From the NCBI RefSeq assembly GCF_036248275.1, contig NZ_CP109181.1, positions 3,348,001-3,412,000 of the forward strand: DNA of 64,000 nucleotides, in the 5' to 3' direction. The stretch is from Streptomyces sp. NBC_01716 (GTDB taxonomy: Bacteria > Actinomycetota > Actinomycetes > Streptomycetales > Streptomycetaceae). Numbering within the stretch: the stretch's first letter is position 1; each line of letters opens with the position of its first letter. Below, piece by piece: positions 33,426 through 43,766 of this stretch. A program made the position numbers and the translations under genes. The notes beneath the pieces are model-generated. The model saw nothing but the letters and a program-made list of their open reading frames with translations, did no database searches and was not told where the DNA came from.

Positions 33426-34625
33426 TCAGGGCTGGGGCAGCGACAGTCCGGGCATCTGCGGGTGCCGTAAATGCTGCCCGTCGTCGTGGACGTGCAGCGT
33501 GAACGCCCCCGGCCCGGGTCGGCCGGCCGCGTCGTAGGCGTCCAGGACGCGTTCAACGCGCTCCCAGAGTCTCACCGGACCGCCCTCCCGCACCTGCCAC
33601 GGGCCGTCGTCGGGGGTGAGGGTGGCGGCGGAGCCGGTGACGACGTCGACCAGGTGCACGACCTCGCCAACGGTGGTCATCTGGGCGTCGGGCACGGCGC
33701 ATTGAGCCAGGAACCGCAGATGGAACGCCTCCTCGGTGGCGGCGCTGATCCGTTCGGGGCTGTGCCGCGCGCTGCGGGGCCTCGCGGGCAGTCCCGCGGC
33801 CCAGTGGGCGGGGTTGCCGAATGCCGGCGCCGCGTGGGTGCGGGCCGCCATGAAGGACACGGTGCCGCTCAGCAGATGCCCCTCGGCGGTGCCGTCCTCG
33901 GCGACGGTGAGCAGGACACGGGCGTACCCGTAGAGCCAGCCCGACAGGGTGAGAAGAATCTTCCCGCCCGGCCGGGTCTGCGCGATCAGTGCCGGAGGCA
34001 CGGCGCGGAAGGAGCAGGCGGCGACGATCCGGTCGAACTTCTCCTCCGGCCAGTACCCGTACAGTCCGTCGGCCACCGCAAGGGTTGGGGTGTAACCACA
34101 CCCGTACAGCGCGCTCGCCGCCGCCTCCAGCCGGTGCGGGTCCACCTCGATGCTCGTGATGTCGGCGGAGCCGAGCCGTTCGCAGGCGAGCGCGGTCGAG
34201 TAGCCGGTGCCGGTGCCGATCTCCAACACGGTGTGCCCCTCGGCGATTTCGGCGTCTACCCACATTCCCGCGACCAGGGACGGCAGGGTGGAGGATGAGG
34301 TCGGTGCGCCGCCGTGGCGTACGGCGGGCCGCGTCCAGTCGGGTTCGTCCCCGTCGAACTGCGTGATGAGCGTGGTGTCGGAGTACGCGGCGGCCAGCCA
34401 ACGGCCCTGGTCGAGTGCGGCGGTGAGCGGCTCCCACATTGTCAGCCCATGCGCGTCCCGTTCACCGGCCGGCAGATAGAAGCCAGGCACGAACCGATGC
34501 CTGGGCACCGTCTCCACGGCCTGCCGCCAGTCCGGATCGGCGAGGACTCCGTCTCGGTCAAGGGCCTTCGCCATCGCCTCCCGCAGCCGTTGGGCGTCCT
34601 TCTCCAGATCGGCGGGCATGGTCAT
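33426..34625 (-). CDS. Methyltransferase of ATP-grasp peptide maturation systems
   Basis: 399 residues, protein-L-isoaspartate methyltransferase-like. SAM motif I is VLEIGTGTGYSTALACERLG (about 135-153), preceded by SLVAGMWVDAEIAEG and followed by ITSIEVDPHRLEAAASALYGCGY and GKILLTLSGWLYGYARVLL. The N terminus (RHRFVPGFYLP, YSDTTLITQFDGD) and the long C-terminal domain match the methyltransferases encoded with ATP-grasp peptide maturases (graspetide-type RiPPs). Its ATGA start overlaps the stop codon of an ATP-grasp remnant, confirming that origin. The ligase is largely gone and no precursor gene is seen, so the enzyme is probably orphaned though intact. Confidence 0.82.
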   Translation of the reverse strand: MTMPADLEKDAQRLREAMAKALDRDGVLADPDWRQAVETVPRHRFVPGFYLPAGERDAHGLTMWEPLTAALDQGRWLAAAYSDTTLITQFDGDEPDWTRPAVRHGGAPTSSSTLPSLVAGMWVDAEIAEGHTVLEIGTGTGYSTALACERLGSADITSIEVDPHRLEAAASALYGCGYTPTLAVADGLYGYWPEEKFDRIVAACSFRAVPPALIAQTRPGGKILLTLSGWLYGYARVLLTVAEDGTAEGHLLSGTVSFMAARTHAAPAFGNPAHWAAGLPARPRSARHSPERISAATEEAFHLRFLAQCAVPDAQMTTVGEVVHLVDVVTGSAATLTPDDGPWQVREGGPVRLWERVERVLDAYDAAGRPGPGAFTLHVHDDGQHLRHPQMPGLSLPQP

Positions 34626-34749
34626 GGCCTGCCGCCTCCTTCCGTGCTCAGGATGTCGGCGAACGCGGCTGTGATGGCGGGCGCGTCCGGGAGCCAGCCC
34701 CATTGGCCGTTCGGATTGCACTCGATCGCGGTCCAGTGTGCCGGGTCGT
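34622..34749 (-). pseudogene. C-terminal remnant of an ATP-grasp peptide ligase
   Basis: Reading upstream from the TGA at 34622-34624 gives WTAIECNPNGQWGWLPDAP and then AITAAFADILSTEGGGRP. ECNPNGQWGWL is the characteristic C-terminal metal/nucleotide-binding segment of TgmB-like ligases. Homology stops at about 34749, where unrelated plus-strand material begins, so only some 40 codons remain. The stop overlaps the methyltransferase start as ATGA, the arrangement of intact loci. Confidence 0.75.
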
Positions 34750-34751
34750 CC

Positions 34752-34971
34752 CCATCGCTCCCTGCTGTCGCTGCGCAAAGCGCGCGCACAGGCGATGCTC
34801 GGCGAATCCCGGGACTGCTACCGCGAACTCGCCCAGGCCGAACGGCTACTCAGCCCGGCCACCGAGGAAGTCCCCAGTTGGTGCGCCTGGATGAGCCCCG
34901 CCGTTATGCGATCTGTCAACCTGTCTCAACGCCGAGGTGTCTCACAGCTTATCTACGTCCTGGCATCGTGA
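34752..34971 (+). pseudogene. Fragment of an XRE/TPR-type regulator gene
   Basis: The frame from 34752 reads RSLLSLRKARAQAMLGESRDCYRELAQAERLL and then EVPSWCAWMSPA, the recognisable mid-section of TPR-containing XRE regulators. After about 34905 the likeness is lost and the frame runs to a TAG-free end at 34971 as random sequence. There is no HTH and no start. It abuts the ATP-grasp remnant head-on, marking a recombination joint at about 34750. Confidence 0.6.
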
Positions 34972-35024
34972 ATCATCACAGGACGCGACCTCACCAGTCC
35001 CGAGGCCGGTATCGAAACACCGGG

Positions 35025-36134
35025 TCAGGAGGTAACGCGGAGCGTCAGTTCGCGAAGCTGGCGGCCGGTGGCAGTGATGTCGTATCGGCGCGCGTTATGT
35101 CGAGCCGCCTTGATCAGGGCCTTCCGCCGATGGAAGTCTCGGCCCATCTCGTCTAGGGCCACGGCCAGCGAGCACGGGTCGCCGGGAGTGTACGGAACAC
35201 CAGCGCTCCCGAGGATTTCCCTCACACCGGGAAGATCGGAGTAGACAACCGGAAGTCCGTGGGCTTGGGCCTCAATGAGGACGAGCCCGAAAGCCTCCAG
35301 ACCCTTGGTCGTGAAGACGAAGGCGTCGAAGTTCGGCAGGCGGCGCCACAGTTCGGCGCGGGGCAGGAACGGATCAAAATGGACTCGATCCCGCAGGCCG
35401 AGTTCGACAGTCCGCTGTTCCAGATGCTCCCGTTGGGGTCCGTTGCCGATCACGGTCAAGTGGTGCGGCTGATCGGTCAATGCGAGGGATTCGACGGCGG
35501 TGATCGTGGATTTGTTGTCGTCCAGGCGGCCGGCGTGTACCAGAGACAGGGGACCGGACCCTGCGGACGGCTGATCGCGTACATGGGCATCGGCCAGACG
35601 GATGCCCCACGGGATGATGACGATGCGGTCGGTGAACCGGCGCCCGGTGAGGCGATCGATGCGGTCGGCGAGGACCGAGGTCGGGGTGACGATCGCGGCG
35701 CTTGCACCGGCGACTTCGAGCACGGCCTCGTGCTCCGCCATGTTGCGCTCGGCCGCCATCACTTCGGGGCCGTGAGCGACGGAGATGATCGGGATCGTGC
35801 CGGCGGTGCGACTGAGCGCGAGGCTGAGTGCGAACCCGACGTTCTGGGCGTGGATGGCGTCCGGCCGGATCTGCTCGATGAGCTTCCCTACCTCTTGCGT
35901 CAGCTCGTCCACGTAGGTGTCGAAGCCAGGGCCCTGGGGTTGCTTCGTCGTGGAGAGGGGGATCAGGTGATCGAACGCGGTCTTCCACACCGGATGGACC
36001 GGTGTCCGGCCAAGGAAGGTCGTATGGGTGTTGGGCATGGCGCGGTAGAGCTCGCCGACGAGGATCATGCTGCCGGACGAAGGCTCGGACGTGCGGTTGA
36101 TGCCGGTGAGGATAGTCAAGGGTTTCGTGGTCAC
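35025..36134 (-). CDS. Glycosyltransferase family 4
   Basis: 369 residues with GT-B fold. The N-terminal domain shows SEPSSGSMILVGELYRAMP, DAIHAQNVGFALSLALS and VAHGPEVMAAERN. The C-terminal nucleotide-sugar domain shows LVHAGRLDDNKS, LTVIGNGPQREHLEQ and EAFGLVLIEAQAHGLPVVYSDLPG, with the E-x7-E motif. It should transfer a sugar from an NDP donor with retention. ATG 36134 overlaps the stop of the preceding gene (ATGA), so the two are coupled. Together with the dehydrogenase, GT2 and oxygenase genes it suggests assembly of a glycosylated metabolite or surface glycan. Confidence 0.92.
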   Translation of the reverse strand: MTTKPLTILTGINRTSEPSSGSMILVGELYRAMPNTHTTFLGRTPVHPVWKTAFDHLIPLSTTKQPQGPGFDTYVDELTQEVGKLIEQIRPDAIHAQNVGFALSLALSRTAGTIPIISVAHGPEVMAAERNMAEHEAVLEVAGASAAIVTPTSVLADRIDRLTGRRFTDRIVIIPWGIRLADAHVRDQPSAGSGPLSLVHAGRLDDNKSTITAVESLALTDQPHHLTVIGNGPQREHLEQRTVELGLRDRVHFDPFLPRAELWRRLPNFDAFVFTTKGLEAFGLVLIEAQAHGLPVVYSDLPGVREILGSAGVPYTPGDPCSLAVALDEMGRDFHRRKALIKAARHNARRYDITATGRQLRELTLRVTS

Positions 36135-37516
36135 GCGGAGATCCCCTCGATAGATGACCGGTAGGCGGGAACCGAGGACGGGGCACTACGGTCCACCATG
36201 ACCTGCGGATCAGTGGTGATCACCCGTCCGCGGTTGCGAGGTGGCGCCCACCACGACGCCAGGTGCGGCGTGAGGACAGCGGTGATCTCCTGGGCCGGGT
36301 GCAGGAAGCCTCTGCTGTCCCGCTTTGCCGTCCACGCCCTGACTGCCGACCGGGGGTAGACGGGGTGTATCCCGATCTCGCCCTTGGGGAGGATGCCGTT
36401 GAAGGGCGTGGGGATGCCCTCGTGGTTCCAGTAGTCCCAAGCCTCCAGCGCCTTGGCCTTCTCGAAGCAGTGGTAGAGCTGCCGATAGCGCGGCATGTAC
36501 CGGATCTCGCGAAAGACCATCTGCCCGACCAGCCCCGGCGCGACGTACCGGAGCGCGCTGAGATCAATGCCCCGGAAGCTCACCGTGGCCGCGTCCTGGG
36601 ACGGGTGCAGCGCGATCCGGGCGAACAGATGGGACAGCCGCCGCCGCACGTACTCGGCGACTCCCGGAGCGAGCGCCGGTTCCACGCCGGCGATGAGCTG
36701 GACGAGCTGCTGGTGGCGCGGATGGAAGCGGGCCAGGTCGAACAATCGGTGCATGCCGTCCACGGCGGCGAACGCGAGTCGCTTGTACAGCCAGTTGTTC
36801 AGCTCTCCGACCTGGGCGTAGCCCCTGGTCTCCGGAGTCGTGGAGTGGAGCATCAGGTACTCGGACAGCACCTCGAAGTACAGGTAGCCGAGAAACGGTA
36901 CAGCGGGCACGGCAGCGGCCAACTGGTCGATGAACTCGGGGGCCTCCGTGGCGCGGCCGACTGCGTTGCGCAGGGCGGTGTCGAGGAATCCGGCCGCGGC
37001 GCCCAGCCCGGTCAGCACGGCATGGTCAAGCTGGTCGTTCTCGACCAGGGTGAGAAATTTCTGGTACCGCAGGTAGGTACGCAGGTGGATGGCACCGAGG
37101 TGCAGATAGTCCACGCCCTTGGTGGGGATCGGAGCGTCCGGGATGACCTCGAAGATCATGGGCGTGGTGCCGGGCTTCGTCTGCATCAGGTAGGCGCCGA
37201 GATTGTGCGGACGCAGTCCTTCCCGCTGACGGGTCAGAGGGGAGCAGTACAGGGCCCCGACCAGGCACCCGGTGGAGACATGCAGCTCACCGCTGGTGCG
37301 GATCGCGGCGATGTCCTTGGTGGTGTGCAGCAGGTACATGGGCCGGTCGCTGACGAGCGCTTCGGTCATCGCGCTGTGCTGGATCAGCCAGCCGTTGGGG
37401 GTGTCACCTTCCAGGTAGCGGCGCCAGTCGCCCTCGCTCTCGGCCAACGAGGCAGGCGCGGGGCGCCGCGCGGGCCGGGTGTAGTCCGTGTGGACGTGCT
37501 CCCATTCGTCACGCAA
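36131..37516 (-). CDS. Unknown 461-residue protein of the sugar cluster
   Basis: I do not recognise this family. Near the N terminus, MYLLHTTKDIAAIRTSGELHVSTGCLVGALYCSPL has the H-T, I-xx-G-L and Y spacing seen at the start of ADP-ribosyltransferase/RNA 2'-phosphotransferase folds; that is weak inference. The centre is helical (LGAAAGFLDTALRNAVGRATEAPEFIDQLA; LFDLARFHPRHQQLVQLIAG). The C-terminal part is rich in aromatics and basic residues: FREIRYMPRYRQLYHCFEKAKALEAWDYWNHEGIPTPFNGILPKGEIG. No signal peptide or membrane helix is evident. It is translationally coupled to the GT4 gene and follows the dehydrogenase by 48 bp, so it is a working part of this operon. Confidence 0.8.
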   Translation of the reverse strand: MRDEWEHVHTDYTRPARRPAPASLAESEGDWRRYLEGDTPNGWLIQHSAMTEALVSDRPMYLLHTTKDIAAIRTSGELHVSTGCLVGALYCSPLTRQREGLRPHNLGAYLMQTKPGTTPMIFEVIPDAPIPTKGVDYLHLGAIHLRTYLRYQKFLTLVENDQLDHAVLTGLGAAAGFLDTALRNAVGRATEAPEFIDQLAAAVPAVPFLGYLYFEVLSEYLMLHSTTPETRGYAQVGELNNWLYKRLAFAAVDGMHRLFDLARFHPRHQQLVQLIAGVEPALAPGVAEYVRRRLSHLFARIALHPSQDAATVSFRGIDLSALRYVAPGLVGQMVFREIRYMPRYRQLYHCFEKAKALEAWDYWNHEGIPTPFNGILPKGEIGIHPVYPRSAVRAWTAKRDSRGFLHPAQEITAVLTPHLASWWAPPRNRGRVITTDPQVMVDRSAPSSVPAYRSSIEGISA

Positions 37517-37564
37517 GGGAACTCCTGGGGTTGAAGTCAGCAGCGGGCCAGGGGGGTTCGGGAA

Positions 37565-38815
37565 CTACAGGGTCTCGACGTTCGCTCCGGACAGGCGGTT
37601 TCGGCAGTCGAGCACGTACGGCGCGTGCTTCTCGATCATCACGAGGTCGAATCGCGGATGATCCATGAGAAGAACCACCGCATCAGCGGCGGCTACCTCT
37701 TCCGGGTTCGCATCGACCCGGGGCACGTTCAGCTCGGTGTCGACGCCGTCCGGGATGTTGGGTTCGGAGCCGCGGACATCGGCACCGAGGCCGATGAGAA
37801 GTTCGGCGACACGCGCCGACGGGGAATTGCGCAGGTCGGTGGCGTCGTACTTGTAGGTCAGGCCGAGGAGTAGAACCTGAGATCCGCTGACCGGTATGCC
37901 CCGCTTGTTGAGTGCTTCCACGAGGCGCCGGACTACGTAGTCGGGCATGTGCCGGTTCACGTCGGCGGCGAGTTCCGCGAACCGGAACGGGATGCCAAGC
38001 TCCTGCTGGGCCTTCCACGAGAGGAACATCGGGTCGACGGGCAGGCAGTGCCCGCCGACCCCCGGTCCCGGGGTGAACTTCGTGAATCCGAACGGCTTGG
38101 TCGCGGCGGCGTCGATCGCCTCCCAGATGCTCACGCCGAGGGCATCGGCCAACATCGCCATCTCGTTGATCATGGAGATGTTGACGAACCGGAAGGTGTT
38201 CTCCAGCAGCTTGGCCAACTCGGCGACCTTCGGCCCTGACACCGGCACCGTGGTCTGGAAGATGCCGTCGTAGAAGTCCTTGATCACGTCGAGCGATTTG
38301 GCGTCGATTCCGGACACCAGCTTCGGCGTCCCGTCGAACGACCACCGCTTGTTTCCGATCCGCTCGGGGCTGAAGCCAGCCAGGAAGTCTGCCCCGCCTT
38401 TGAGGCCCGAGGTCTCTTCCAAGATCGGCAGCAGCAGCTCCTCGGTGGTGCCGGGATAGCTCGTGGACTCCAGGACCACCGTCGCGCCGTGGCGCAGGTG
38501 CTCACCCAGTGTCCGGGCGCAGGACTCGATGTAGGTCAGGTCGGGCACGCCGTCTCGCAGCGGGGTCGGCACGGTGATTACCGCGATATCGAAGCCGACC
38601 AGTGCGGCAGTGTCGGCGGTCACGGAGTAGGCCCCGGTCTCCAGCACCGCGCTGAGCCGCGAGGAGGCCACGTCCTCCACGTAGGACTGGCCGGCGGCGA
38701 GCTGCTTGACGCGGCGCCGGTCCACGTCGTAGCCAACGACACGGTGTCCCACCTCTGCGGCGCGTACGGCCAGCGGAAGCCCTACGTAACCCTGACCAGC
38801 GACAACTATCTGCAC
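37565..38815 (-). CDS. Nucleotide-sugar dehydrogenase (UDP-ManNAc/UDP-glucose type), catalytically complete
   Basis: 416 residues. The Rossmann motif VVAGQGYVGLPLA is at 4-16; STSYPGTTEELLLP and GFSPERIGNKRWSFDGTPKLVSG follow. Catalytic Cys257 lies in GPGVGGHCLPVDPMFL, and the C-terminal domain has GLTYKYDATDLRNSP. It should convert an NDP-hexose or NDP-HexNAc to the uronic acid. Start GTG 38815 has TAGGAG six bases upstream; the long upstream in-frame extension is a shadow of the divergent GT2 gene. It heads the minus-strand operon with the unknown 461-aa and GT4 genes. Compare the Cys-less copy at 2751. Confidence 0.93.
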   Translation of the reverse strand: MQIVVAGQGYVGLPLAVRAAEVGHRVVGYDVDRRRVKQLAAGQSYVEDVASSRLSAVLETGAYSVTADTAALVGFDIAVITVPTPLRDGVPDLTYIESCARTLGEHLRHGATVVLESTSYPGTTEELLLPILEETSGLKGGADFLAGFSPERIGNKRWSFDGTPKLVSGIDAKSLDVIKDFYDGIFQTTVPVSGPKVAELAKLLENTFRFVNISMINEMAMLADALGVSIWEAIDAAATKPFGFTKFTPGPGVGGHCLPVDPMFLSWKAQQELGIPFRFAELAADVNRHMPDYVVRRLVEALNKRGIPVSGSQVLLLGLTYKYDATDLRNSPSARVAELLIGLGADVRGSEPNIPDGVDTELNVPRVDANPEEVAAADAVVLLMDHPRFDLVMIEKHAPYVLDCRNRLSGANVETL

Positions 38816-38881
38816 GGCAGCTCCTACTCGATTCCGGTGCTTGAATGGACCGTCGTTCCTGGTCTGGCAAGGAGAAGCGCT

Positions 38882-39655
38882 GTGCCCCTGGTGTCTGTCG
38901 TGATGCCCGTGTACAACTCGGCACCCACCCTCGGCGCAGCCGTCCGATCGGTGCTCACGCAGACCCACAGCGACCTGGAGCTCCTGGTCACCGACGACCA
39001 GTCCTCCGATGGCTCCATGGACCTGCTCCGCGAGTTCGCCGAGCAGGACGAACGCGTCCTGCCGGAGTCGGCACCCGAACAGGGAGGCGCGGGCCGGGCC
39101 CGCAACCTCGCGATCGAGCGGGCCCGCGGGGACTACATCGCCTTTCTCGACAGCGACGACATGTGGCTTCCGGAGAAGACCGAGAAGCAGCTCGCCTTCG
39201 CCGCGGAGGCCAGTGCGCCGTTGACGTTCACCTCGTACTTCAAGATGGACGCCGACTACGAGGGCGAGAGCACCGACTGGGTCCCGAACGGCCGGGTGGT
39301 CCGTGCGCGGCAGCACGTGAACTACCGCGCGATGCTGGTCCGAGACCACATCGGCGCCCTCACCGCCATGTACGACCGCAATGCCCTGGGCACGAGGCTG
39401 ATGCCGGAGATGCGCAAGCGCCAGGACTACGCCCTCTGGCTGTCGATCATGCGGGACGGCGCTGACGCCCGAGGCCTGGCTGAACCGCTTGCGGTGTACA
39501 GGGCCCACCAGGCGGGATCGCTCTCCTCCAACAAACTGTCGCTCGTGCAATACAACTGGGCCCTGTATCGCGAGCACGAGCATCTGTCGGTCCCACGGGC
39601 GACGCGGGCACTGAGCGGGGCTGTATGGCAGTCTCTGCGTAACTCGCGCATCTAG
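38882..39655 (+). CDS. Glycosyltransferase family 2
   Basis: 257 residues, GT-A fold. The N terminus VPLVSVVMPVYNSAPTLGAAVRSVLTQTHSDLELLVTDDQSSDGS is typical, followed by QGGAGRARNLAIERARGDYIAFLDSDDMW with the metal-binding DSDD, and KRQDYALWLSIMR as the acceptor-side ED-like motif. It probably adds one hexose or HexNAc. Start GTG 38882 has AAGGAG seven bases upstream. It is divergent from the dehydrogenase with only 66 bp between start codons, a shared promoter region that suggests joint control. Confidence 0.92.
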   Translation: MPLVSVVMPVYNSAPTLGAAVRSVLTQTHSDLELLVTDDQSSDGSMDLLREFAEQDERVLPESAPEQGGAGRARNLAIERARGDYIAFLDSDDMWLPEKTEKQLAFAAEASAPLTFTSYFKMDADYEGESTDWVPNGRVVRARQHVNYRAMLVRDHIGALTAMYDRNALGTRLMPEMRKRQDYALWLSIMRDGADARGLAEPLAVYRAHQAGSLSSNKLSLVQYNWALYREHEHLSVPRATRALSGAVWQSLRNSRI

Positions 39656-39722
39656 GTTCGCGAACGGGCCCGGGGCGCCCGGTGCGCAACCGTTTCGGTG
39701 GGTCACCGGTGCCTTCGACCGG

Positions 39723-40622
39723 CTACGCGGCCGAGCCGTTGCCGGCCCTCGCGCGCAGGAACAACTGCAGGAGCAGCCGCCTGTCGGAGACCGGGACGGC
39801 CTCCTGACCACTGTGGAGCGCCTCCCGACCGTGCAGGAAGCGGCGCTGGTTCACGATGAGGTAGTCCCCGGGCTGGAGCATGAGGGAGACCTGCCCCCGG
39901 ACAAGCTCCGCAGCGAGTTCCCTGGCGGCGTCGGCGTGCGCCTGGCCGAGCTCGGACCTCTCCAGCATCTTGGCGGTGAACCGGACGAACCCCTCGCCCG
40001 GGGCGGAGCCGTCCAGGATCGGGAACGGCTTGTACTCCTCGCCCACGCCGAACAGGTCGAAGAAGGTCCCGTAGTGGTAGGCCGACTCGGCCAGCAGGGC
40101 ACGGCTGTCCTCCGACAGCCGCGCCACCGCAGCGCGGGCGTCGGACAGGATGCTGGGGCCCCCGCCGAGCGGGTCGGGGCGAACGCACAGGAGCGTGGTG
40201 TAGTCAGGGGGCAGGGTCCCGTTCACCAGGTCCATGTGGAAGGCGTTGTAGCCGATGCCGCTGGACTTGCCGGGGTCCTTGTCGACCTTGACCCCGATGT
40301 CCTTCCACAGGGGCCACCGAGGGAAGGGCGAGAAGGGAATCGCCACCTCGGCCGCGAAGGCCGTCGCCAGCCGCTGGAACCTGTCGTCGACCCCCAGGGC
40401 CTTGGCGAGGTTTCCCAGGCGCAGCACGGCGTATCCGCCGCCCTCCCCGGTCAGCGAGTGGCGCAGGATCGCGGCGGTTTCCTCGAACTGCGGGGTGACC
40501 TTCAGCTCGGCCCGGTACCGCCCCATGGTGGACTGCGCCAGGAACGCGCCGTCCAGTTTCCAGAGCGGGAGAGAACAGTCGATCAGAGCGGCTTCGAGTT
40601 CGCTCGGGATGTCGATGAGCAC
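39723..40622 (-). CDS. TauD/TfdA-like Fe(II)/2-oxoglutarate-dependent oxygenase
   Basis: 299 residues. AFHMDLVNGTLPPDYTTLLCVRPDP supplies the HxD iron ligands, and LIVNQRRFLHGREALHSG the distal His and 2-oxoglutarate-binding Arg. The overall order resembles clavaminate synthase/arginine hydroxylase-like members that act on amino acids or peptide-bound substrates. The substrate here is unknown; a hydroxylation or desaturation step in the product of this cluster is plausible. GTG 40622 is taken as start (AAGGAAG upstream), since the further N-terminal extension lacks homology. Its upstream region carries the GTACG repeat array. Confidence 0.88.
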   Translation of the reverse strand: MLIDIPSELEAALIDCSLPLWKLDGAFLAQSTMGRYRAELKVTPQFEETAAILRHSLTGEGGGYAVLRLGNLAKALGVDDRFQRLATAFAAEVAIPFSPFPRWPLWKDIGVKVDKDPGKSSGIGYNAFHMDLVNGTLPPDYTTLLCVRPDPLGGGPSILSDARAAVARLSEDSRALLAESAYHYGTFFDLFGVGEEYKPFPILDGSAPGEGFVRFTAKMLERSELGQAHADAARELAAELVRGQVSLMLQPGDYLIVNQRRFLHGREALHSGQEAVPVSDRRLLLQLFLRARAGNGSAA

Positions 40623-40974
40623 GCGGAGCTTCCTTCTCTCTTGGGGTTCTCGACGTTGACCGGGAACAGGCCGCTGCCCCGAGACCGTGGGGAGTCGGCA
40701 GGTCTCTCCGGGCGGCACCCACCCTCGACCGTGACCGAAGGTAATGACACCAGCACTCTGGGGTGTTCACTGTCGTGAACCCGCGGCCCCCGAGCCGGTT
40801 CAGGGCCGACAACGCGTCGCCGAACCGAGCGTTCGCGTAGGCAGCAATGCCCTCAGTCGCGTACGGACTCCACGCGGAGGTGTGTACGGGCGAAAGTGCT
40901 CCACCGCGTACGACTTGTGCACTTCGGCAACGTACGGACTTATGTCCTCAGCCGGGGCCGAGCGCCACCGCCGG
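40623..40974. other. Intergenic region upstream of the oxygenase gene
   Basis: 352 bp with no supported gene. It must contain the oxygenase promoter and the 3' end of the XRE regulator transcript. Apart from the five-member GTACG-type array at 40837-40943, there is an imperfect inverted repeat CGAAAGTGC/GCACTTCGG between about 40891 and 40927. Confidence 0.65.
40837..40943. repeat. Five GTACG-type repeats at 23-24 bp spacing
   Basis: Copies begin at 40837 (GTAGGCAGC), 40861 (GTACGGACT), 40884 (GTACGGGCG), 40908 (GTACGACTT) and 40932 (GTACGGACT); three are preceded by GC and the last by AC. The spacings are 24, 23, 24 and 24 bp, a little over two helical turns, so bound proteins would march along one slowly rotating face of the DNA. 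The array lies 215-320 bp upstream of the oxygenase start and just downstream of the XRE gene. Possible operators of the adjacent regulators. Confidence 0.6.
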
Positions 40975-42216
40975 TCACAGTGGCAGGCCGATCCGGTGGG
41001 CCAGGCCCCGCAAGTCCCGGGAGATGTTGGCCGGCAGTTGCCGGTCGGTGAGGAACTCGACGGTGTTTCTCACCGGCGCGTTGGCGTGGATGCGCTGGGG
41101 GGCGATCCGCTCGGCGGTCAGCAGGGCCGCGACCGCCTCGGCCTCCCGGCCCCGCAGATGGGCCAGGGACCGGCCCAGATCGGCATGGAAGGCGGCCTGC
41201 CGCCCCGGAGCCTGTTCCAGGGCCTCGGGATGCACCCTGCCCCCGGCGGTGACGGCATCGCCGTGCAGACCAAGGTCGGTGTTCAGGCTCACCTGGTGGA
41301 TACCGACGTTGGTGGGGCCGAAGTTCAGGTGCCAGGCCCGCGTCTCGCCGGTGCTGCTGGCGAGGTTCGCGGCCTCGGCGAGGTGGCCGCGGACTTCAGC
41401 TGCCCGGGCCTTCCCGGGCCGGTGCCGGTCCTGGGTCAGCGAGGTGGCGGAGATCAGGTGGAGTTCGCCGAGCAGAGCATGCGCGTCTGGGCTGTTCAGA
41501 TGTGCTTCCAGGCTGTTGGCGGCGGCGGTGGCCTGGGCCAGGGCCTGGGTAGGGCTGCCGACCGACATCAGCACATGCGTGTGGAAGAAGCCGGAGAGTG
41601 CGGAGTAGACCGGGTCGTCGAGTTCCGCGATTCCCTGGGCGGCGCGGGTGACCGCGATGAACGCCAAGTCGGTATAGCCGAGGTTCTTCAGCAGCAGCGT
41701 GCAGGCCGGGTGGTAGGCGTCCGCCAGCAGCTTCAGCAACTCGCGCCGGGCGCCTCCGACAGCGGCCTCGGCCGCAGCATGCAGGTCGGACAGCAGCGCG
41801 GGCAGCCCGGCGGCGAGGGTGCCGTACTCGGCAGAGTGGTAGAGCCGATTGGCCTTCTCCACTCGCTCGGCCAGGACCGACGCCGGAACCTGGGGCGGGC
41901 GGCGGTCCGGCGGGGTGGCCATGGTGATCCCCATCAGCGTCAGCCGCAGGGCCGGGATCGCCTCATGGGCCGCAGTCGCGTGCGGGGCTGCCGGGGCGAA
42001 GGGCTGACCAGTCAGCTCGGACGGGGCGACCTGCAGGGCCTCGGCGAAGGAGGTGATGTGACTGGAGCGGTCCAGCAAGCGCCGACCATTCTCCACCATC
42101 GACAGATAGCCGACCGAAACCCCGGCCAGGCCCGCGAGGTTACGCAGGCTCATCCCCCGCTGGCGACGGGCCGAACGCAAACGCTCGCCGATCCGCCTCG
42201 CCTGCTCTTCGTCCAT
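40975..42216 (-). CDS. XRE-family regulator with TPR-like C-terminal domain
   Basis: 413 residues. The HTH is at about 8-62: IGERLRSARRQRGMSLRNLAGLAGVSVGYLSMVENGRRLLDR. The remaining 330 residues are helical with TPR-like repeats (LKNLGYTDLAFIAVTRAAQGI, PVYSALSGFFHTHVLMSVGSPTQALAQATAAA). Such regulators usually sit beside secondary-metabolite or signalling genes and bind a peptide or small ligand. ATG 42216 is well supported by HTH position. It follows the second XRE gene on the same strand after 84 bp and precedes the sugar cluster, which it may control. Confidence 0.9.
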   Translation of the reverse strand: MDEEQARRIGERLRSARRQRGMSLRNLAGLAGVSVGYLSMVENGRRLLDRSSHITSFAEALQVAPSELTGQPFAPAAPHATAAHEAIPALRLTLMGITMATPPDRRPPQVPASVLAERVEKANRLYHSAEYGTLAAGLPALLSDLHAAAEAAVGGARRELLKLLADAYHPACTLLLKNLGYTDLAFIAVTRAAQGIAELDDPVYSALSGFFHTHVLMSVGSPTQALAQATAAANSLEAHLNSPDAHALLGELHLISATSLTQDRHRPGKARAAEVRGHLAEAANLASSTGETRAWHLNFGPTNVGIHQVSLNTDLGLHGDAVTAGGRVHPEALEQAPGRQAAFHADLGRSLAHLRGREAEAVAALLTAERIAPQRIHANAPVRNTVEFLTDRQLPANISRDLRGLAHRIGLPL

Positions 42217-42300
42217 CGCCCCCGCCTCAACTCCCGTACCTCAGCCGTAGCGTAGGGCGAGCCTGGCGCCCCAGGGGTCTTTCCCGCCAAGACGGGGGCG

Positions 42301-43428
42301 TCACCGCACCCCAGCCTGCTCGGCCAGATTCCGCACCGCTGTGGCCTGGACGGTGTCGGTGGTGCGGGCGGCGAGCACGGCGACCAGTTCCCGGGCGAAG
42401 GGGTCCAGCCGCAGCCGTAGCGGCGCCGCCGCGTCGGCCTCGACGAGCCGGGCGACGGCCCCATCGGTGTGACCCTGGCGGGCCTCGGCCGCCGCGGCGA
42501 CCAGCAGCAGGCCCGAACGCTGGGCACCGCCGAGTCCCGACTGATCCGTCGCGCGGGCGCGGCTCGCGGCCTCGGCGGCGTCCCCGTACTCGGCGGCGAC
42601 GGCGGCGCGCGCCGCGTTGACCAGGGTCGACTCCCGCACGTCGGCGGCCCGTTCGGTGGCCGTCGCAATGAACTTGTCGGCCTCCGTGCGGCGTCCGGCC
42701 ATGGCCTGGGCGACGGCGGCCAGCGCCGGAAGCTCCCACCCGGCTCCGGCGTCCTCGGCACGTACGGCGCGGGCCAACGCGTACTCCGGCAAGCCGAGGT
42801 CGATCAACAGCCGCACCTCCTCGACCAGCACCGGCAGCGGTTCCCGGGGACCGGGGCTGGCCCTGTGTAGCAGCATCCAGGCAAGTTCCTTGTAGCCCAG
42901 GCGCCGCAGCAGCCCAGCGCCCAGCACATGCACCCGGACCCGCAGCCGCATCGCCTCCTCCCGGCAAGACGGCGAGGCAGCGGCAACCGCTTGGTCCGCG
43001 CCGTCGATCAGCTTCGGCAGCGCGAGCGCAAGGCCGACCTCATCGCCGGCCGCATCGGCCTGTGCGGCGGCCCGGGTCCGCTCACCCAGCTCATCCAGCA
43101 TCAGACCGGCGGCCGTATCCGGGTGCGGGCGAGCGATGCGGCGCCGCAGATGGAAGGCGACGGCCCGCACCGCCGCGTGCTCCTCCCCGCGCGGCGGGTA
43201 GGGCTGTCCGGTCAGGTCCGCGACATCCAGCCGCAAGGCGGCGGCCAGCGCACCCAACCGACCGCGGCGGTCCACCCACTCCCCGCCCGTCTCCAGCCCG
43301 GCAACGTAATCGAGCGGCAGCCCGGCGCCGGAGGCCAGATCCTCGCGGGTCAGTCCGCGGCGAAGGCGCCAGACACCCAGGCGGGCCCCGACCGGGCCGC
43401 GGGCGGCCGTCTCGTCCAGCTCGCGCAT
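42301..43428 (-). CDS. XRE-family regulator, second copy, TPR-like
   Basis: About 375 residues from ATG 43428. The HTH reads GARLGVWRRLRRGLTREDLASGA-like (actual: ARLGVWRLRRGLTREDLASG) and LPLDYVAGLETGGEW at about 12-45. A region like the neighbour's follows (LRLDVADLTGQPYPPRGEEHAAVRAV), then TPR-like helices (LLIDLGLPEYALARAVRAEDAG). The shared TGQP(F/Y) junction shows that the two regulators are related. The start is uncertain: no clear ribosome site precedes 43428, and the frame stays open upstream, with GTG 43551 as an alternative that would add 41 residues. Confidence 0.8.
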   Translation of the reverse strand: MRELDETAARGPVGARLGVWRLRRGLTREDLASGAGLPLDYVAGLETGGEWVDRRGRLGALAAALRLDVADLTGQPYPPRGEEHAAVRAVAFHLRRRIARPHPDTAAGLMLDELGERTRAAAQADAAGDEVGLALALPKLIDGADQAVAAASPSCREEAMRLRVRVHVLGAGLLRRLGYKELAWMLLHRASPGPREPLPVLVEEVRLLIDLGLPEYALARAVRAEDAGAGWELPALAAVAQAMAGRRTEADKFIATATERAADVRESTLVNAARAAVAAEYGDAAEAASRARATDQSGLGGAQRSGLLLVAAAAEARQGHTDGAVARLVEADAAAPLRLRLDPFARELVAVLAARTTDTVQATAVRNLAEQAGVR

Positions 43429-43766
43429 CACCAGATTGCTCGCATACCCCACCGCCCGGACCGTGTGCTCTGCCAGGGCAGAGGCCCGCTCATGTCGCTC
43501 AGGGGATCTCCGCGATGAGCGCGTATGCCCTTCGCGCGACACATTAGTCACACCGCTGAAGGCGATGCGCGTCCGGCGGTTGATGCGTCGGGTCAGGACC
43601 CGGATCTGATTGGCGTAGGCGACCAGGGTTCCTTCAGATCGCGGACCTCGGAGGCATGTTCTCGGCGAAGCTCGCGCTCCGCCTTCTTCATCCGGGCTAC
43701 CTCCGCCCGCAGTTCCGAACACGGAGTCGAACTCCTCCGCCACGAGGTCGCCAGGGCGAGGTGAGG
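43429..43766. other. Gap between XRE and DUF397 genes, possible mobile-element debris
   Basis: 338 bp without a supported gene. On the minus strand near 43625-43715 one frame reads ELRAEVARMKKAERELRRE, a short coiled coil reminiscent of IS3-type OrfA proteins, but it is too short and unsupported to call. The XRE gene may extend into this stretch if GTG 43551 is its start. Confidence 0.4.

Follow-up and report, generated by a model that had tools for sequence, protein, structure and literature searches.

The teichuronic acid genes of Bacillus (TuaD, TuaG and TuaC) combine a nucleotide-sugar dehydrogenase with a GT2-type and a GT4-type glycosyltransferase, and a dehydrogenase, a TuaG-like GT2 and a GT4 are likewise encoded in the five-gene block that we analyze here. 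The block lies in a window of 64,000 nucleotides (the whole stretch of DNA analyzed, G000:C1:3348001-3412000) taken from the single-contig, 8.67-Mb genome of Streptomyces sp. NBC_01716, which has a G+C content of 71%. Its dehydrogenase (P0003) also resembles the uridine diphosphate (UDP)-N-acetylhexosamine 6-dehydrogenases of the WecC, TviB and 4r16 type in that it passes the TIGR03026 model and carries the ENTFR...VN and GGHCxPVDP motifs. Similarly, its TauD-like oxygenase finds its best PDB relatives among the clavaminate-synthase-like hydroxylases (AsnO, Lys 3-hydroxylase and VioC) and retains an intact iron-binding HxD...H motif. The fifth gene encodes a protein of 461 residues, referred to here as U461.

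We propose that these five genes constitute a horizontally mobile biosynthetic cassette for a small soluble acidic glycoside, transferred for the most part as one unit whose edges are fixed and whose divergent promoter region is conserved, and we place the probability of this reading at roughly 55%. A pattern-based, non-exhaustive scan of one genome per species in 84,980 species found U461 at 55 loci, 28 of them with 59 to 94% identity (L002 to L029, hereafter the close loci) and 27 with 38 to 43%. The dehydrogenase and GT4 sequences were found beside U461 at all 28 close loci, and all five genes were present in identical order and on identical strands at 27 of them; the contig carrying the remaining one (L005) ends before the block is complete. 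A preliminary description of this DNA, made from the sequence alone, had grouped the five genes and had named co-occurrence of the U461 family with the four enzymes across genomes as a test of the grouping; these loci bear it out, as do the 11 of 11 clade-A copies found near an oxygenase in the genus sample described below. The hosts belong to Streptomyces, Streptacidiphilus and Nonomuraea, and the block resides on chromosomes as well as on linear plasmids. In one case (L022 and L029), two copies lie near opposite ends of the same chromosome.

To define the limits of the unit, we took 52 open reading frames (ORFs) of the window, chosen on codon composition by a simple rule, and compared them with 35 loci at a threshold of 50% identity over half the length. 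These loci, not all of which are independent, comprise the 28 close loci, five IMG/VR contigs and two plasmids, and they extend at most about 8 to 12 kb on each side of U461, meaning that only near neighbors were tested. U461 and GT4 recurred in 35/35 loci, the dehydrogenase in 34/35 and the oxygenase in 33/35; GT2, which the ORF selection did not include, was counted separately in the gene-order and dN/dS comparisons. Outside the cassette, two XRE-type regulators recurred in 2/35 loci and every other tested ORF in none. Furthermore, DNA similarity ended between positions 34983 and 35066 on the left (exceptions L008 and L024) and between 40618 and 40671 on the right (exceptions L005 and L023), in 33 of the 35 loci on either side. 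Three loci (L004, L008 and L011) share an additional block of DNA starting at 40703. The conserved gene order, the ORF recurrence and the similarity edges rule out a chance neighborhood, and we regard the conclusion from these comparisons that the five genes form one unit as solid. No mobility gene was common to the compared loci within about 8 to 12 kb of U461.

The coordinates are collected in Table 1. Four of the five cassette proteins were assigned by Pfam above cut-off, U461 being the one without a match. The U461 and GT4 genes share 4 bp, the dehydrogenase and U461 are separated by 48 bp, and GT2 is separated by 66 bp from the divergent dehydrogenase gene and by 67 bp from the convergent oxygenase gene. 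Thus, the tight spacing reported in the preliminary description holds, and translational coupling, which it had also proposed, applies to U461 and GT4 only and not to the other genes. Judged by strand, the block is predicted to form three transcription units. A ribosomal peptide precursor inside the cassette was ruled out because the gaps are of just 48, 66 and 67 bp. The start codon of U461 (37514-37516) is TTG in 24 of the 27 clade-A loci listed, ATG in L015 and GTG in L022, and the gene is broken in L027; a TTG start may result in weak translation.

Table 1. Features of the five-gene block; positions count from the first letter of the window.
Feature	Position	Strand	Assignment
GT4-type glycosyltransferase, P0001	35025-36134	-	PF00534
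U461, 461 amino acids, P0002, TTG start	36131-37516	-	family unrecognised
Nucleoside diphosphate (NDP)-sugar 6-dehydrogenase, P0003	37565-38815	-	TIGR03026; N-acetylhexosamine-type by profile scores
Divergent intergenic region, 66 bp, holds GT2 ribosome-binding site; conserved core GTGCTTGAATGGACCGTCGTTCC	38816-38881		
GT2-type glycosyltransferase, P0004	38882-39655	+	PF00535
TauD/clavaminate-synthase-like Fe(II)/2-oxoglutarate oxygenase, P0005	39723-40622	-	PF02668

The divergent region, already singled out in the preliminary description, is indeed conserved, measuring 64 to 67 bp with an almost constant sequence in 31 of 34 loci. In the other loci (L020, L021 and L023), it is only 31 to 32 bp long and lacks the core, which occurs as a single copy in the whole genome of the host when up to three mismatches are allowed. 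We ruled out that the region encodes an N-terminal extension of GT2, given frame-breaking lengths at several loci and an in-frame stop in L083. Upstream of the oxygenase, conservation is limited to approximately 30 bp and is absent even there in some loci.

The block is flanked by a TIGR04188 methyltransferase gene (33426 to ~34622) and by XRE-type regulators (40975-43743), which were ruled out as cassette members by their recurrence in 0/35 and 2/35 loci, respectively. The methyltransferase matches the model "ATP-grasp peptide maturase system methyltransferase" with 427 bits against a cut-off of 380. No ATP-grasp gene was seen adjoining it, in flanks for which annotation is incomplete; immediately upstream there is an ORF of 55 codons (34622-34789).

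In a sample of 392 genomes of the genus, 47 had a U461 match, which we sorted by identity to U461. Ten carried near-full-length clade-A copies (75 to 100%), two clade-A fragments (G365 and G375), seven copies of branch A' (52 to 58%) and 26 copies of branch B (39 to 45%). The last two, G344 and G354 (E value of 3e-4), were dismissed as artefacts: these regions held no U461 match at an E value of 1e-5 and, by eye, contain PhoH-type and secreted-protein genes. The 11 near-full-length clade-A copies, from 10 genomes, all have the oxygenase at a distance of 2.2 to 2.3 kb; two of them (G026 and G035) contain stops within the matched stretch. Part of the cassette also occurs by itself. The dehydrogenase, GT2 and oxygenase form a trio lacking U461 and GT4 in L059, L061 and L074 (oxygenase 60 to 63%, GT2 87 to 89%, dehydrogenase 69 to 72% identity) and, by annotation, on plasmid L126 (GT2 89%, TauD 62%), whereas L060 has the oxygenase and GT2 only. 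GT2 relatives on plasmids L124 and L125 have no other cassette gene beside them. Because of these trio-only loci and lone plasmid relatives, we interpret the trio as a core, U461-GT4 as an added pair and GT2 as a gene that can travel alone. A plasmid cluster, L123 (NZ_CP108096.1), carries distant relatives of TauD and GT4 together, with neighbors annotated as rRNA methyltransferase, dCTP deaminases, PIG-L deacetylase, WbqC, tRNA-ligase-like and radical SAM proteins; it looks like a larger biosynthetic cluster.

We then examined selection by pairwise NG86 comparison with the window copy (n = 32 to 35 per gene), the comparisons sharing one reference and hence not being independent. Median dN/dS was 0.33 for the oxygenase, 0.18 for GT2, 0.25 for the dehydrogenase, 0.28 for U461 and 0.32 for GT4, with a maximum of 0.53, indicating purifying selection on the cassette genes. 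Between-gene correlation of identity to the window copy reached Spearman coefficients of 0.54 to 0.74 in seven of ten gene pairs. We placed 47 U461 proteins in a maximum-likelihood tree, rooted at the midpoint and with a bootstrap that had not settled; in it, the Nonomuraea copies L010 and L015 nest among 23 otherwise mostly Streptomyces sequences with a support of 98/96, and Streptacidiphilus L023 falls outside. Cassette copies were also found on two linear plasmids, one of 357 kb and one of 467 kb, GT4 being in pieces on the latter; a third plasmid has a decayed copy broken by an insertion sequence (IS), and one more plasmid match (H6) is a 35% fragment. Overall, the tree and the plasmid copies indicate transfer between actinomycete families. 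Phage origin was rejected after zero matches in 50,697 phage records; in IMG/VR, seven contigs carry relatives, five of them at 77 to 94%. A search with the U461 profile A1 for distant relatives across the phylum found none in 395 genomes besides that of the host, of which some belong to its own genus. The negative carries little weight, since only four candidates were scored per genome and copies in Nonomuraea and Streptacidiphilus had already been found by the other scan.

The catalytic motifs of the cassette enzymes are near-invariant across copies. The dehydrogenase exceeds the cut-off of TIGR03026 (368.2 versus 189.8 bits), has the motifs ENTFRxVN and GVGGHCLPVDP, and keeps the catalytic cysteine C257 of the GGxC motif in 34 of 35 homologues. 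Among single-function models it scores highest with the archaeal UDP-N-acetylmannosamine (ManNAc) dehydrogenase (268 bits, cut-off 750), followed by TviB (199), WecC (194), AglM (163) and TuaD (120), and its best PDB match is the UDP-ManNAcA dehydrogenase 4r16 (E value of 1e-69). In printed alignments, its motif pattern also fits the N-acetylhexosamine group. By profile scores, P0003 is thus nearer to UDP-N-acetylhexosamine than to UDP-glucose dehydrogenases, making an amino-uronate a likelier product than a plain uronate. The preliminary description had proposed a uronic-acid-type NDP-sugar; the dehydrogenase assignment stands, and the sugar type shifts toward the amino-uronate.

GT2 exceeds the cut-off of PF00535 (106.9 versus 23.3 bits) but not that of the TuaG equivalog model (215.9 versus 400 bits). 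Its best PDB matches are residues 373-495 of chondroitin synthase, which we take to be the glucuronosyltransferase half, and then heparosan synthase B. The DSDD motif (the metal-binding DXD) and the RQD motif are invariant in 34/34 copies. GT4 scores 82.4 bits with PF00534 (cut-off 26.4) and has the EX7E motif, with E280 in 31/32 and E288 in 32/32 homologues. Its PDB relatives are weak (Alr3699, PimA, lipopolysaccharide 1,6-galactosyltransferase and tetrahydrobiopterin glucosyltransferase), and its predicted class is generic. The oxygenase scores 64.6 bits with PF02668 (cut-off 27), and its facial triad is conserved throughout the aligned copies, with H129 and D131 (HxD) in 33/33 and the distal H264 in 34/34. 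A profile of 16 oxygenase relatives matched AsnO (2e-12), Lys 3-hydroxylase (4e-12) and clavaminate synthase (3e-11) in the PDB, with TmpA and gamma-butyrobetaine dioxygenase lower. The oxygenase thus appears closest to these amino-acid hydroxylases, although it scores only 27.4 bits with the clavaminate synthase equivalog (cut-off 450).

U461 itself had no match in Pfam, NCBIfam (E value of 1), PADLOC (0.01), PHROGs (0.1) or PDB sequences (10), and a profile search of the PDB returned a single chance-level match (E value of 1.4). This is in agreement with the preliminary description, which had assigned it to no known family. Its alignment A1 has 105 invariant columns, including parts of LLHxT, GCLVG, YLMLHS, GELNNWLYK and PFNGxxPKGE, some of which are relaxed in branch A'. 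Two AlphaFold2 (AF2) models of the family (predicted local distance difference test, 72 and 76, the higher value being for a B-branch protein; predicted template modeling score, 0.75 and 0.81) place strands near both chain ends around a large helical insert, and a fold search with both against the PDB gave no Foldseek match at an E value of 0.001 and no VIA Z score of at least 5. Relatives at about 40% (B) and 51 to 58% (A') identity belong to two further operons of nucleotide or sugar enzymes. A' neighborhoods contain short-chain dehydrogenase/reductase (SDR) epimerase, DegT, Gfo/Idh, GT2 and methyltransferase genes, and in 6/7 A' loci a protein 39 to 47% identical to the HD-like protein of branch B adjoins U461. 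Five A' loci (L067, L069, L071, L085 and L086) form a second sugar-type cluster around the U461 protein, with epimerase, aminotransferase, oxidoreductase and glycosyltransferase genes. The B operon (L031:4429-10124 and 26 more, L030 to L056) comprises a divergent helix-turn-helix-NUDIX gene followed by nucleoside diphosphate kinase (NDK)-like, small TPR-like, CYTH, HD-like, U461 and methyltransferase genes. Across the 27 B loci, some of them cut short, the partners recur 25 (methyltransferase), 24 (NUDIX), 24 (CYTH), 23 (NDK-like), 22 (TPR-like) and 18 times (HD-like), the HD and TPR assignments being below Pfam cut-offs. Judged by eye, B loci sometimes lie beside restriction-modification or relaxase genes, and of five B-operon proteins only NUDIX (1e-11) and the methyltransferase (0.002) matched PADLOC.

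The product of the cassette is probably an undescribed small sugar compound, and the chemistry that we infer for it is as follows. The dehydrogenase would convert a UDP-N-acetylhexosamine, with UDP-N-acetylglucosamine as the pool at hand, into an amino-uronate donor, and the oxygenase would hydroxylate a small amino-acid-like acceptor or intermediate. GT2 would then transfer the uronate and GT4 another sugar, so that a small, soluble and acidic glycoside would result. In the simplest sequence of reactions, the hydroxyl made by the oxygenase would subsequently be glycosylated by the transferases. U461 may be an enzyme of an unrecognised family with a nucleotide- or sugar-linked substrate, acting with the translationally coupled GT4 on what the core trio produces.

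Several observations weigh against this proposal. Oxygenases at 83 to 90% identity occur without U461 in G158, G002 and G034, which speaks against strict linkage; G158 has GT2 and a dehydrogenase cut short, in G002 the 18 kb extracted hold no further cassette gene, and the G034 oxygenase is a fragment near a contig end. The loci with a short divergent promoter (L020, L021 and L023) also have a different GT2 allele (74 to 77%), and GT2 identity correlates weakly with that of U461 (0.31, P = 0.07), the dehydrogenase (0.37) and GT4 (0.44). Because of these weak correlations, GT2 has partly its own history. Median dS to the window copy spans 0.22 (oxygenase) to 0.45 (U461), and on these grounds the histories of the five genes are not exactly alike. 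Three of the 28 close loci (L008, L024 and L027) have broken or partial genes, and L057 and L128 are decayed as well; truncated dehydrogenase, IS insertion and broken frames are the types of decay seen among L057, L128 and L008. Given these decaying copies, the cassette appears to be lost as well as gained. P0003 remains under the cut-off of every single-function model. Finally, the unit has no transporter, resistance, carrier-lipid or activating enzyme gene, which is unusual for an exported metabolite.

Some of these data could be explained if the cassette were a system for modifying the cell surface or a glycan of the wall, for example against phage, instead of making a small metabolite. This would fit the resemblance of GT2 to TuaG and to glycosaminoglycan synthases, the patchy, mobile and dispensable nature of the cassette, which recalls surface-variation and defense loci, and, by eye only, the restriction-modification-like genes adjoining some B relatives. 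However, no flippase, polymerase, initiating phosphoglycosyltransferase or membrane protein is part of the unit, as a teichuronic or capsular locus would lead one to look for, and no such partner is common to the loci within the 8 to 12 kb seen (the search was confined to this span). PADLOC models at an E value of 0.01 matched none of the five proteins either, and we consider this explanation unlikely. Still less probable, in our view, is that the block represents part of a larger gene cluster or a neighborhood kept only through recent common descent. The plasmid cluster uniting distant relatives of TauD (34%) and GT4 (46%) would suit such an origin, but no additional tested ORF is common to the 35 loci within the 8 to 12 kb seen, and the genomic contexts differ. 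Moreover, the median dS values with far lower dN indicate that the cassette is not a recent copy, so that for the A block this alternative is largely contradicted and very improbable.

The cassette might also act inside the cell, modifying a protein, RNA or the nucleotide pool, with U461 being ADP-ribosyltransferase (ART)-like and the sugars being put on a cellular target. Among 13 families compared by hhalign, residues 58-135 of U461 align best with the KptA/Tpt1 2'-phosphotransferase (P = 0.029, the other 12 giving P = 0.13 to 0.7) and cover the YLYHGT...AIR..GL motif of KptA; the B-branch partners (NUDIX, NDK-like, CYTH and, weakly, HD-like proteins) point in the same direction. Nevertheless, the hhalign probability is 1.7% in one of 13 trials, for which chance suffices, and we treat the similarity as a lead only. 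The DarT comparison was negative (P = 0.26), though with a poor alignment, and no ART or KptA fold was among the rows listed for either AF2 model, which is not exclusionary; no other family stood out there either. We give this explanation little credence. A bolder proposal is that U461 founds a new enzyme superfamily spread over three mobile operons, that the cassette makes an undescribed class of metabolites (a hydroxylated amino-acid-like core with an amino-uronate and a second sugar), and that U461 performs nucleotide-dependent transfer through an ART-like core; taken as a whole, we find it unlikely.

The cassette is short, sharply bounded, conserved and mobile, so that a single experiment could clone it in full and test it. 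Should a product be found, it would name a metabolite common to many actinomycetes and provide the first function for the U461 family. Since this family occurs in three operon types (the sugar-uronate cassette, the epimerase/aminotransferase cluster and the NDK-CYTH-HD-methyltransferase operon), one biochemical result would open all three.

Compared with the described systems, the cassette differs from the teichuronic acid genes in that all its counterparts score under the cut-offs (GT2 216/400 for TuaG, P0003 120/700 for TuaD, P0001 24/550 for TuaC), in lacking a polymerase, a flippase and a lipid-linked step, and in adding the oxygenase and U461. Unlike the established UDP-N-acetylhexosamine 6-dehydrogenases, P0003 falls below each single-function cut-off, its substrate class being a prediction from profile scores and motifs. 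The oxygenase likewise falls below single-function cut-offs and, unlike the clavaminate-synthase-like hydroxylases, is paired here with glycosyltransferases. The Streptomyces TauD-GT2-dehydrogenase trio (L059, L061, L074 and L126) shares three of the five genes and lacks U461 and GT4; we know of no description of it and hence regard it as a relative rather than a known system. A limited search of the open-licence literature found no described match for the cassette or the U461 family. The preliminary description had suggested an undescribed product; the absence of a characterised match in this search agrees with it, while the product itself stays at the level of a prediction. Small mobile glycoside pathways are a kind known in outline, and it is the composition of this one and its U461 family that appear to be undescribed.

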